DNA of 64,000 nt, taken from positions 372,001-436,000 of the forward strand of contig NZ_JAKRGF010000002.1 in NCBI RefSeq assembly GCF_022347685.1, written 5' to 3'. The number at the start of each line of letters is the position of its first letter. Position 1 is the first letter of the stretch. The translations under genes and the position numbers were made by a program. Below are positions 20,674 to 49,933 of the stretch, piece by piece. This DNA comes from Thalassobius sp. Cn5-15 (GTDB lineage Bacteria > Pseudomonadota > Alphaproteobacteria > Rhodobacterales > Rhodobacteraceae). Under the pieces are notes generated by a model. It was not told the origin of the DNA. It worked only from the letters and a program-made list of their open reading frames with translations, and ran no database searches.

Positions 20674-20750
20674 TGGCGGACCGAGGAGGATTCGAACCCC
20701 CGACCCCTTGATTCGTAGTCAAGTACTCTATCCAGCTGAGCTATCGGTCC
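20674..20750 (-). tRNA. tRNA-Arg (anticodon ACG)
   Basis: 77-base tRNA with CCA encoded. The acceptor GGACCGA pairs with TCGGTCC, the D arm AGCTCAGCTGGATAGAGT, the anticodon loop CTACGAA (ACG, normally read as ICG for CGN codons) and the T arm GGGGGTTCGAATCC are all canonical. A promoter with 17-base spacing lies just upstream and a terminator just downstream. Confidence 0.98.
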
Positions 20751-47593: not shown

Positions 47594-48664
47594 TCAGCCC
47601 GCTTTGCGCAGCGGGCTAGCGCGGCGGATTTCCACTGCCTGTGCCAGACGGCGTAGCATGGTCACCGTGTCTTCCCATCCCAGACAACCATCCGTGATCG
47701 ACTGGCCATAGGTCAGCGGTCCGTCGCCCAAATCCTGACGGCCTGCAACGATATTGCTCTCCATCATCACACCAGTGATGCGGTGATCGCCTGCCTCCAT
47801 CTGGCCAGCGATATCTTCCAGAACCATCGGCTGTTTCATCGGATCCTTGCCGCTGTTGGCGTGGCTGGCGTCGATCATCACATGGGGGCGAATGCCATCC
47901 TGTTCGGCCATACGGCAGGCCGCATCGATCGAGGTGGCATCATAGTTCGTGCCGCCCCCACCGCGCAGAATGATGTGGCAGTCGGGGTTACCGCTGGTCG
48001 CCGCAATCGCCGGACGGCCGTTTTTGGCCAGCGCCATGAAATGATGCGGGTGCGCCGCCGAACGGGCGGCATCAATGGCGATCTGCACATTGCCACGGGT
48101 GCCGTTTTTGAACCCGACAGGACAGCTGAGGCCCGATGCCATTTCGCGGTGGATCTGACTCTCAGTGGTGCGTGCACCGATAGCGGCCCAGCTGACCAGA
48201 TCGGAAATGTACTGCGGCACGGAGGCATCGAGGAATTCCGTCCCCACTGGCAGGCCCAGTTGATTGACGTCCAGCAGCAACTGGCGCGCCACCTCAAGGC
48301 CCGCATCAATGCAGAAAGTACCATCAAGGCCGGGATCATTGATCAGCCCCTTCCAGCCGGAAATCGTGCGCGGTTTTTCAAAGTAGACGCGCATGACAAT
48401 CTCTAGCTGTTCGCCCAATTCGTCGCGCAGAGGGACCAGGCGGCGGGCATAGTCCATCGCCGCCTCTGGGTCATGGATCGAACAGGGGCCAACAACGACA
48501 ATCAGCCGATCATCATGGCCATGCAGCACCTTTTGCACGGCTGTGCGCCCGTCCAAAACGGTGCGGATGGACTGCGCGGTGATTGGCAGTTTGGCGGTCA
48601 GTTCAGCGGGGGTGCGCATTTCCATCATATTGGTGATGCGCAGATTTGCGGTTTCAGATGTCAT
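47594..48664 (-). CDS. aroG: 3-deoxy-7-phosphoheptulonate (DAHP) synthase, class I
   Basis: First enzyme of the shikimate pathway, condensing phosphoenolpyruvate and erythrose 4-phosphate. The 356-residue protein is of the AroAIalpha class: VVVGPCSIHDPEAAMDYA, MRVYFEKPRTISGWKGLIND, SQIHREMASGLSCPVGFKNGT and DASHANSGKDPMKQ. Upstream is a leader ORF rich in Phe, Trp and Tyr and an intrinsic terminator, so synthesis is probably controlled by attenuation in response to aromatic amino acids. No other aro or trp gene is adjacent. Confidence 0.96.
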   Translation of the reverse strand: MTSETANLRITNMMEMRTPAELTAKLPITAQSIRTVLDGRTAVQKVLHGHDDRLIVVVGPCSIHDPEAAMDYARRLVPLRDELGEQLEIVMRVYFEKPRTISGWKGLINDPGLDGTFCIDAGLEVARQLLLDVNQLGLPVGTEFLDASVPQYISDLVSWAAIGARTTESQIHREMASGLSCPVGFKNGTRGNVQIAIDAARSAAHPHHFMALAKNGRPAIAATSGNPDCHIILRGGGGTNYDATSIDAACRMAEQDGIRPHVMIDASHANSGKDPMKQPMVLEDIAGQMEAGDHRITGVMMESNIVAGRQDLGDGPLTYGQSITDGCLGWEDTVTMLRRLAQAVEIRRASPLRKAG

Positions 48665-48721
48665 GGTCGGGTGTCCTAAGATTGAAGAGTGTCTGGGTTA
48701 GGCCCCCCGTCGGCGGATGCG

Positions 48722-48747
48722 AAAAAACCGCCCGTTGGGGGGCGGTT
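48722..48747 (-). promoter_or_regulatory. attenuator terminator of aroG
   Basis: Minus-strand RNA: AACCGCCC (48747-48740), 6-base loop, GGGCGGTT (48733-48726), overlapping a run of six Us (48727-48722). It lies 34 bases after the leader ORF stop and 57 bases before the aroG start. Its 5' arm can instead pair with GGCGGT in the leader ORF (48809-48804), extended to 8 pairs with one bulged A. Confidence 0.85.
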
Positions 48748-48781
48748 CGTCTGGTATCTCTGGTGCGTTTAGAATGTTTCC

Positions 48782-48859
48782 TCAGAACGCGCAGATCCCT
48801 CCGACCGCCGTGTGGCGCGGATAGAAGGAATACCAAAAGAATACGGTCTGATGTGTCAT
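48782..48859 (-). CDS. aromatic leader peptide of aroG
   Basis: 25-codon ORF in the aroG leader. Residues 7-13 read FFWYSFY: six of seven codons are for Phe, Trp or Tyr, the end products of the pathway. The next codons (CCG CGC, 48820-48815) can pair with GGCGG at 48809-48805; ribosomes stalled on the aromatic run would cover the first part and free GGCGGT to pair with the terminator 5' arm. It has no Shine-Dalgarno; the candidate promoter places transcription start at or within a base or so of the ATG, as a leaderless message. Start, spacing and terminator fit classical attenuation. Confidence 0.85.
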   Translation of the reverse strand: MTHQTVFFWYSFYPRHTAVGGICAF

Positions 48860-48866
48860 GGCCAGA

Positions 48867-48895
48867 ACGCTAGCGACGATTCGGGATTCTGTAAA
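48867..48895 (-). promoter_or_regulatory. candidate promoter of the aroG leader
   Basis: Minus strand: -35 TTTACA (48895-48890), 17-base spacer, -10 TAGCGT (48872-48867). Expected start near 48860, next to the leader ATG at 48859. Confidence 0.5.
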
Positions 48896-48920
48896 GGGGG
48901 GGACAATGTCTGTTTTTTAC

Positions 48921-49007
48921 GCACACCGCGTCCGAACCGAGGGGCGAAGCAGAGCGCCCGCCCCGTGAGGCGGTTCGGGCGCTGCCAAGTCAAAGATTTG
49001 GCAATGA
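48921..49007 (+). repeat. dispersed double-hairpin repeat, copy A
   Basis: An 87-base element beginning GCACACCGCG and ending in TTTGGCA. It holds two adjacent stems: AGCGCCCG with CGGGCGCT, then TGCCAAGTC with GATTTGGCA. The element at 60489-60576 aligns along its whole length in the same orientation. It lies between aroG and the DCC-family gene. Confidence 0.75.
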
Positions 49008-49052
49008 CATTCCAGCTATCGGGGCTATCTGATCCGCAAGATAGGAAACAAC

Positions 49053-49451
49053 ATGACCGAAACACCCGAAACCCGCACGCTCTACAATGCAGACTGTCCC
49101 GTCTGTAACGCCGAGATTTGTCATTACGCCGCCTACTCCGATGCGCGCGCGTTGCCCTTGGCCTTTGAGGATTTGAACACCGTCGATCTCACCGATTGGG
49201 GCGTCACATCGGATCAGGCTATGCGGCGGCTGCATGTGCTGCATCAGGGGCAGATCTACGTCGGATTTGATGCCTTTGTGATCCTTTGGGACCAGATGCC
49301 GCGTTACCGTTTTGCCGCGCGCATTGGCCGGCTGCCCCTGATCCGCCCCCTTGCCCGCTGGGGGTATGAGAGGATCGCAGCGCCGTGGCTATATAGGTCT
49401 CATAAAAAGCGCATGGCAAAATGGGCCGCAAAAAATCAGGCTACAAAATAG
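49053..49451 (+). CDS. DCC-family thiol-disulfide oxidoreductase-like protein (DUF393)
   Basis: 132-residue protein of the DCC (DUF393) family. LYNADCPVCNAEICHYA carries the Asp-Cys-Pro-x-Cys motif (about residues 14-18), and RLHVLHQGQIYVGFDAF and APWLYRSHKKR are typical. A thioredoxin-like redox role is suggested for the family but not proven. It converges on the rplQ operon with a shared terminator between. Confidence 0.9.
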   Translation: MTETPETRTLYNADCPVCNAEICHYAAYSDARALPLAFEDLNTVDLTDWGVTSDQAMRRLHVLHQGQIYVGFDAFVILWDQMPRYRFAARIGRLPLIRPLARWGYERIAAPWLYRSHKKRMAKWAAKNQATK

Positions 49452-49482
49452 AAAAACCCCCGCACCATTTCTGATGCGGGGG
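49452..49482 (-). terminator. terminator of the alpha (rplQ) operon
   Basis: CCCCCGCA (49457-49464) pairs with TGCGGGGG (49475-49482); on the minus strand the stem is followed by TTTTT. It lies 29 bases past the rplQ stop. Confidence 0.9.
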
Positions 49483-49510
49483 CAGGTCCGGTCACGAATG
49501 ACCGAGGATC

Positions 49511-49933
49511 TTATTCGTCAACGGCTGCTTCTGCAGCGGCAACGCGTGCTTTGTCAGCAGCGCCTTTGGCGTCGACGTCACGATCAACGAATTCGATGAT
49601 CGCCATCGGCGCCATGTCACCGTAACGGAAGCCGGCCTTCAGGATACGAACGTAGCCGCCCTGACGGTCCTTGTAGCGCGGGCCCAGAACGTCAAACAGT
49701 TTGGTAACGTACTGGTCTTGCTTCAGCTTGGAAGCTGCCTGACGACGGGCGTGCAGATCGCCACGTTTCGCCAGAGTGATCATCTTTTCGATGATCGGGC
49801 GCAGTTCTTTTGCTTTCGGCAGGGTGGTCTTGATCTGTTCATGTTCGATCAGCGAACCGGCCATGTTCGAGAACAGCGCTTTACGGTGTTCATGAGTACG
49901 GTTCAGACGGCGGTAACCACGAGCGTGACGCAT
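49511..49933 (-). CDS. rplQ: 50S ribosomal protein L17
   Basis: 140-residue L17 of the large subunit. Starts [20 protein letters not shown], with [17 protein letters not shown] and the acidic tail usual in alphaproteobacteria. Separated from rpoA by 152 bases that contain a GGGGCGG/CCGCCCC hairpin (50048-50070). Last gene of the alpha operon. Confidence 0.98.

Follow-up and report, generated by a model that had tools for sequence, protein, structure and literature searches.

That DAHP synthase is under allosteric control is textbook knowledge. Control of this enzyme by a leader is reported for few bacteria in the searchable literature, and, as far as open-access papers were searched, we know of no described attenuator that reads all three aromatic amino acids. 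The aroR-aroF attenuator of Corynebacterium glutamicum is said to have been described by Neshat et al. 2014. As far as the available parts of two papers go, the aroR leader with its Phe-Tyr-Phe codons precedes aroF and was reported to respond to Phe, not to Tyr (PMC11802643, PMC4046766). For Acholeplasma, the accessible text of one study describes the motif uORFC-13-1, a predicted upstream ORF (uORF) before aroF (PMC8632094). Attenuation sensing Tyr-tRNA was hypothesised for aroF of E. coli and Shewanella, with reference to Camakaris 1980, in the available passages of two papers (PMC8632094, PMC2659441), and the accessible part of a Shewanella screen counts aroF ('attenuator sensing tyr-tRNA') and aroH among the predictions with literature support (PMC2659441).

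The window, i.e. the whole stretch of 64,000 nucleotides analysed here, contains a short ORF with clustered aromatic codons upstream of aroG. An earlier note on this DNA had interpreted this arrangement as attenuation by an aromatic leader in front of a DAHP synthase gene. Our computational analysis supports this interpretation: the aroG leader is very probably a ribosome-mediated transcription attenuator that responds to the charging state of the tRNAs for Phe, Tyr and Trp. The leader is widespread and would let one gene read all three end products.

The aroG leader and its parts

The product of aroG scores 507 bits against TIGR00034 (cut-off 173) in a family profile search, and the closest solved chains in a structure-chain search are Phe-sensitive DAHP synthases, which we take to be E. 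coli AroG. The position of Ser211 in such enzymes affects Phe versus Tyr feedback; in the alignment with the solved Phe-sensitive enzyme, the protein encoded in the window has Ala at this position.

The elements upstream of aroG are listed in Table 1. The 25-codon ORF with the run FFWYSFY, reported in the earlier note, is real and was correctly placed, and the terminator with six T in front of aroG was found in the sequence as claimed there. Thus, two features of the attenuator class are present: a short leader ORF in which codons for the end products are clustered and, judged by sequence, an intrinsic terminator between leader and gene.

Table 1. Features of the aroG leader region in the window (positions of the window; minus strand throughout)
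Feature	Position	Strand	Basis
Candidate -35 element TTTACA	48890..48895	-	Promoter scoring; common form in relatives is a TGACA-type -35 with a 17-nt spacer
Candidate -10 element TAGCGT, 7 nt 5' of the leader ATG	48867..48872	-	Promoter scoring
Leader ORF, 25 codons plus stop, peptide MTHQTVFFWYSFYPRHTAVGGICAF	48859-48782	-	ORF list and upstream regions of relatives
Control codons FFWYSFY, codons 7-13 of the leader ORF	48821..48841	-	Codon analysis and ribosome-position folds
Segment 1, CCGCGCC, predicted partner of segment 2 in the anti-antiterminator hairpin	48814..48820	-	Alignment and pairing counts
Segment 2, GGCGGT, copy of the terminator 3' arm; alternative predicted partners segment 1 and segment 3	48804..48809	-	
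Segment 3, terminator 5' arm AACCGCCC	48740..48747	-	Sequence and alignment
Segment 4, terminator 3' arm GGGCGGTT plus six-T tract	48722..48733	-	Sequence and alignment
Intrinsic terminator, AACCGCCC-loop-GGGCGGTT	48747-48726; six T 48727-48722	-	Sequence
aroG, class I DAHP synthase, 356 aa, ATG at 48664	47594..48664	-	TIGR00034
Strong terminator-like site, 12 pairs	49456-49483	-	Just 3' of ORF 49511-49933 (-), presumably ribosomal protein L17

A strict consensus scan of positions 48000-49500 listed no promoter, and the terminator of the aroG leader was likewise unlisted. The -10 element in the window has three of six consensus matches, its spacer to the -35 element being 17 nt long; the terminator was probably missed because its stem includes two of the six T. 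At the gathering score, the sole Rfam match in the whole window is a tRNA (20677-20750), with no leader or T-box family; below the gathering score (E up to 10) there are three matches around the leader, no leader family among them.

We propose the following course of events. Transcription would begin at the leader ATG. When Phe, Tyr and Trp are plentiful, the ribosome would pass the aromatic codons and reach the stop codon, segment 2 being first covered and then captured by segment 1; the 5' arm of the terminator would be left free, the terminator would form, and transcription would end before aroG. Shortage of any one of these amino acids would make the ribosome wait on the aromatic run and cover segment 1, so that segment 2 could pair with the 5' arm, no terminator would form, and aroG would be transcribed.

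Conservation and predicted alternative pairing of the leader

The region upstream of aroG was compared between the window and 80 relatives (the top 80 among at least 590), 81 regions altogether. A strict leader rule (Trp-containing aromatic run, start codon, and GC-rich arm plus T run) was satisfied by 62 of the 81, and the aromatic run, whose absence from relatives the earlier note would have counted against its own reading, is conserved. The other 19 comprise two regions too short to judge (L024, L037), two leaders with a terminator missed by the pattern (L066, L067), one reduced leader (L041), and 14 gamma- and betaproteobacterial loci which were counted as leader-free. Among these 14, L065 has an aromatic-rich ORF that lacks both Trp and a GC-rich terminator; the one in L063 is weaker. 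The aromatic run was found again in Alphaproteobacteria, in Lysobacteraceae and in some other Proteobacteria.

Two side observations concern individual loci. In L065, a Coxiella-labelled record, the aromatic run SFYAYRFSNFFYF lies upstream of 957, before a DAHP synthase gene, and may be a chance product of AT-rich sequence. In L101, L102 and L041 the aromatic run is reduced or scattered and the terminator is kept, possibly reflecting decay or change of the sensor.

In an alignment of 47 non-redundant leaders the mean column identity is 57%, and TGG, the GGCG of segment 2, the terminator arms CCGCC and GGCGG, and TTTT are invariant in all 47; the invariance of TGG is partly due to the strict rule, which demanded Trp. 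At one pair of the terminator stem both sides are substituted in 22 of the 47. A script located the terminator in 106 of 108 leaders, missing L177 and the mis-picked leader L187.

The promoter also keeps its place. The best-scoring -10 element ends 6-8 nt 5' of the start codon in 49 of the 62 leaders, in line with the leaderless ORF considered in the earlier note, and it is usually paired with a TGACA-like -35 at a 17-nt spacer; in L012 and L015, which are outside the 49, an in-frame upstream ATG restores a distance of 7 nt. This spacing puts the predicted start of transcription on the leader ATG or directly beside it, and judging from these positions the leader ORF is probably leaderless. According to the accessible parts of two papers, trpL of Sinorhizobium meliloti was shown to begin at the transcription start (PMC7298713, PMC10117765).

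The alternative pairing of GGCGGT proposed in the earlier note, either with CCGCGCC or with the 5' arm of the terminator, fits the computed pairings. Segment 2 can pair with the chosen 5' arm in 59 of the 62 leaders; the three others (L053, L068, L077) show three of five pairs because the script picked an upstream CCGCC. The first four of these pairs never vary, the fifth is absent in 7 of 47 leaders, and pairing at the outer positions is found in roughly half of the 47 at most. Since the core never varies, it has no support from covariation. In single leaders, the copy of the terminator arm is only modestly unlikely (median shuffle p 0.085), and in 33 of 108 leaders segment 2 cannot be located by an exact match to the terminator arm, since the stem extends into the T tract. 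The hairpin of segments 1 and 2 has a mean energy of -10.2 kcal/mol over the 62 leaders, its register varying in the alignment, and is weak in four Bradyrhizobium loci (about -6 to -7 kcal/mol). In 50 of the 62 leaders the distance from the start of segment 2 to the stop codon is exactly 25 nt. A ribosome terminating there would thus be placed just 3' of this segment.

To analyse the effect of ribosome position, the RNA was cut directly after the 5' arm of the terminator and a ribosome footprint was masked, which extended 18 nt to the 5' side and 12 nt to the 3' side of the first base of the A-site codon. In this cut RNA the antiterminator is the best fold at 320 of 370 aromatic-codon positions versus 15 of 62 stop-codon positions, and in 27 of 62 leaders free of ribosomes. 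A footprint shorter by 6 nt gave 289 of 370 and 15 of 62, a footprint longer by 6 nt 324 of 370 and 19 of 62. With the ribosome at the last aromatic codon the antiterminator is formed in 50 of the 62 leaders, and at the next three codons in 23, 3 and 1. In most relatives codons 5' of the run are permissive as well, the window being an exception: among codons 1-26, the antiterminator was confined to A-site codons 8-14 (9-15 with the shorter and 7-13 with the longer footprint), a zone consisting of the aromatic run and at most two codons beyond, and it was absent from the cut RNA both at the stop codon and without a ribosome. Folding the leader into its alternative structures, as the earlier note had advised, thus revealed a switching zone over the aromatic run in the cut RNA, and an antiterminator with the ribosome on the control codons, a further feature of the attenuator class, belongs to this cut-RNA fold only. 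In the full-length equilibrium fold with ribosome masks, the terminator was preferred at each position tried and there was no switch. That fold therefore lends no support to the model, in which a kinetic switch is assumed.

A further helix was considered, in which the aromatic codons would pair with a motif upstream of the terminator. It was found in 21 of 62 leaders versus 13.5 expected in shuffles, which is not clearly above the shuffled background, and was rejected.

Codons and peptide of the aromatic run

We collected 103 distinct leader peptides with four or more aromatics per nine residues; Trp played no part in the choice. The run holds both Phe and Tyr in all 103; exactly one Trp is found in 92 and none in 11. 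These numbers bear on the strongest alternative, namely that the leader is a Phe/Tyr attenuator with an incidental Trp codon, in which only shortage of Phe and Tyr (or of Phe) counts. This would fit the constant presence of Phe and Tyr, the 11 runs lacking Trp, and the aroF operon of C. glutamicum, whose reported response is to Phe but not to Tyr despite leader codons for both. On the other hand, Trp was retained in 92 of 103 peptides although the set was not chosen for it, and in the cut-RNA folds Phe, Trp and Tyr each own a codon at which a stalled ribosome would permit the antiterminator in 52 of the 62 leaders, all of which had been selected to contain Trp. We regard an incidental Trp codon as possible but doubtful, and prefer the reading in which all three amino acids are sensed. 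Natural variants (leaders with and without the Trp codon, reduced runs, a frameshifted clade) make sensing of several amino acids, and the role of codon speed, accessible to experiment.

The choice of codons in the run is unusual. GC3 is 29% in the Phe and Tyr codons of the run, 81% in its other codons, 84% before it and 74% after it. Among the Phe codons of the leaders, 211 of 299 are TTT, versus 35 of 594 in the downstream aroG genes; among the Tyr codons, 179 of 279 are TAT, versus 205 of 571 (counts from 108 leaders, the mis-picked L187 among them). Phe and Tyr codons that end in T are decoded through wobble pairing; the bias can naturally be understood in terms of slow decoding, and we take it as a sign of selection for this property.

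Upstream of a metabolic gene, a short peptide rich in aromatic residues could also work as an arrest peptide of the TnaC type, which would sense a free aromatic compound and stall the ribosome. The codon bias points to decoding speed instead. Moreover, among the 103 peptides no conserved residues beyond the sensed codons were found, as would be looked for in nascent-peptide arrest: the residues before the run vary, and so does the order of Phe and Tyr around Trp. Finally, four Phenylobacterium leaders (L044, L046, L052, L054) carry a one-base insertion directly 3' of the run, by which the C-terminal peptide is out of frame while segments 1-4 are retained. The four loci form one clade, and the insertion was probably a single event. 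It indicates that the constraint past the run acts on the RNA, the run itself being constrained as codons. Peptide arrest is thus a very improbable explanation, and attenuation by waiting at the aromatic codons is preferred.

Occurrence of the leader together with aroG

A covariance model of the leader (R1) was searched against the genome of the window (G000) and against samples of genomes from its class, family and phylum. G000 was in all three samples, and G499 and G361 in two each. The training leaders of R1 overlap with the class sample in G000 only, and with the family sample in G763, G816, G820, G864, G898 and G000. In its own genome the leader is the single strong site (E 5.7e-27) beside 13 weaker matches. 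The second best of all (L083, E 0.0037) was considered as a leader and rejected, having neither aroG nor an aromatic run.

In the class sample (385 genomes) R1 matched with E below 1e-9 in 14 genomes, the next best match being a partial one (2.7e-6), and these 14 are also precisely the genomes with aroG (E at most 1e-60). Leader and aroG of G187 lie near the ends of two different contigs, and in G277 and G355 the runs are reduced or scattered. The family sample (198 genomes) has aroG in 11 and R1 (E at most 1e-6) in 10; the leader of the eleventh genome (G875) is present by inspection. In the phylum sample (398 genomes) aroG-type genes occur in 225 and R1 matches (E at most 1e-6) in 44. The 23 alphaproteobacteria with aroG in this sample are the identical 23 with the leader. 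Of the 21 matches outside this class 17 lie before aroG, three before pheA-like genes, and one is apparently due to chance, and 185 of the 202 non-alphaproteobacterial genomes with aroG-type genes in this sample have no R1 match beside aroG. Altogether, the three samples contain 44 distinct alphaproteobacterial genomes with aroG, and the leader is present in all 44 (43 by the covariance model, one by inspection).

In a quick tree of 108 aroG proteins, 93 of them labelled as leader-bearing (L065 and L063 were set by hand to 'none' and L102 to 'leader'), the leader label changes three times versus 14.3 times in shuffles. Alphaproteobacteria and Lysobacteraceae come together in a group of 83 proteins (SH-aLRT 99), of which 82 have the leader; the remaining one is L041 with its reduced leader. 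Two records titled Nocardioides (L013) and Mycobacterium (L026) carry aroG with leader and group with Leisingera or alphaproteobacteria; they are possibly mislabelled or contaminated.

A class II DAHP synthase is encoded as well in each of the 14 class-sample genomes that carry aroG. In the genome of the window this gene (L132, PF01474, G000:C9:368168-369478) is preceded by a Shine-Dalgarno-like GGAGG, and no leader was evident by eye upstream of it. We consider it more probable than not that the aroG leader is a three-input switch, in which any single shortage of Phe, Tyr or Trp would suffice to induce DAHP synthase, that lineages gained or lost the Trp input by change of one codon, that the Phe and Tyr codons (TTT, TAT) were selected to be slow, and that leader and aroG travel as one unit, providing a second, inducible class I enzyme beside class II. 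If so, a single leader would monitor the branched aromatic pathway through each of its three end products.

The company of aroG in 44 of 44 alphaproteobacterial genomes of the samples, together with a peptide that is poorly conserved outside the run, also speaks against a main job in trans, with attenuation being secondary. A small RNA or peptide of this kind is known from rnTrpL and peTrpL of Sinorhizobium, and the accessible text on S. meliloti states that both the terminated leader RNA and the leader peptide act in trans (PMC7298713); for the aroG leader we hold such a main role to be even more improbable than peptide arrest. A chance ORF plus an unremarkable terminator in the intergenic region upstream of aroG, for which the strict scans with their unlisted promoter and terminator could be quoted, is practically refuted, since the run with its conserved codons, the pairing segments and the promoter-to-ATG spacing all recur in relatives, making the locus more than chance.

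In comparison with known systems, the leader belongs to a small-ORF family in Proteobacteria for which no matching Rfam or NCBIfam model was found here. The pheL-pheA leader of other Proteobacteria has the identical order of parts, and R1 also matches three such loci (L183, L186, L190), in which the gene behind is presumably that of a chorismate mutase/prephenate dehydratase; their leaders are Phe-rich and without a Tyr or Trp codon. Two Enterobacteriaceae loci (L079, L080) have no such leader before aroG. Within the open-access literature searched, we met no aroG leader of this kind for Alphaproteobacteria or Xanthomonadales; an earlier prediction may be contained in Vitreschak 2004 or in the attenuator database mentioned in PMC1173090. 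With trpL of S. meliloti, as described in the accessible parts of the publications (PMC7298713, PMC10117765), the aroG leader would share the leaderless ORF at the transcription start, the alphaproteobacterial host and transcription attenuation, but trpL has Trp codons and precedes trpE(G). uORFC-8-2 of Rhodobacterales cysS is likewise a predicted ribosome-mediated attenuator and comes from the same bacterial order; it differs by its Cys codons and by the tRNA synthetase gene it precedes, according to the available text (PMC8632094).

The closest likeness is to leaders of DAHP synthase genes. For E. coli and Shewanella aroF, attenuation was likewise proposed for a proteobacterial DAHP synthase gene, as a hypothesis for one Tyr-sensitive isoenzyme. 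uORFC-13-1 also consists of a predicted uORF with one or more Phe codons and a terminator before a DAHP synthase gene, but it is described from Acholeplasma and environmental sequences only, with at least one Phe codon and an own ribosome-binding site, and the accessible description has no Trp or Tyr codons. In aroR-aroF, a short leader with aromatic codons precedes the DAHP synthase gene and attenuation by stalling under Phe limitation is described, but the host belongs to the Actinobacteria and the run is Phe-Tyr-Phe, Trp not being mentioned in the accessible text; this comparison is by description only. The aroG leader is very probably a classical attenuator in its mechanism, and what appears to be new is the combination of three aromatic inputs and its spread.
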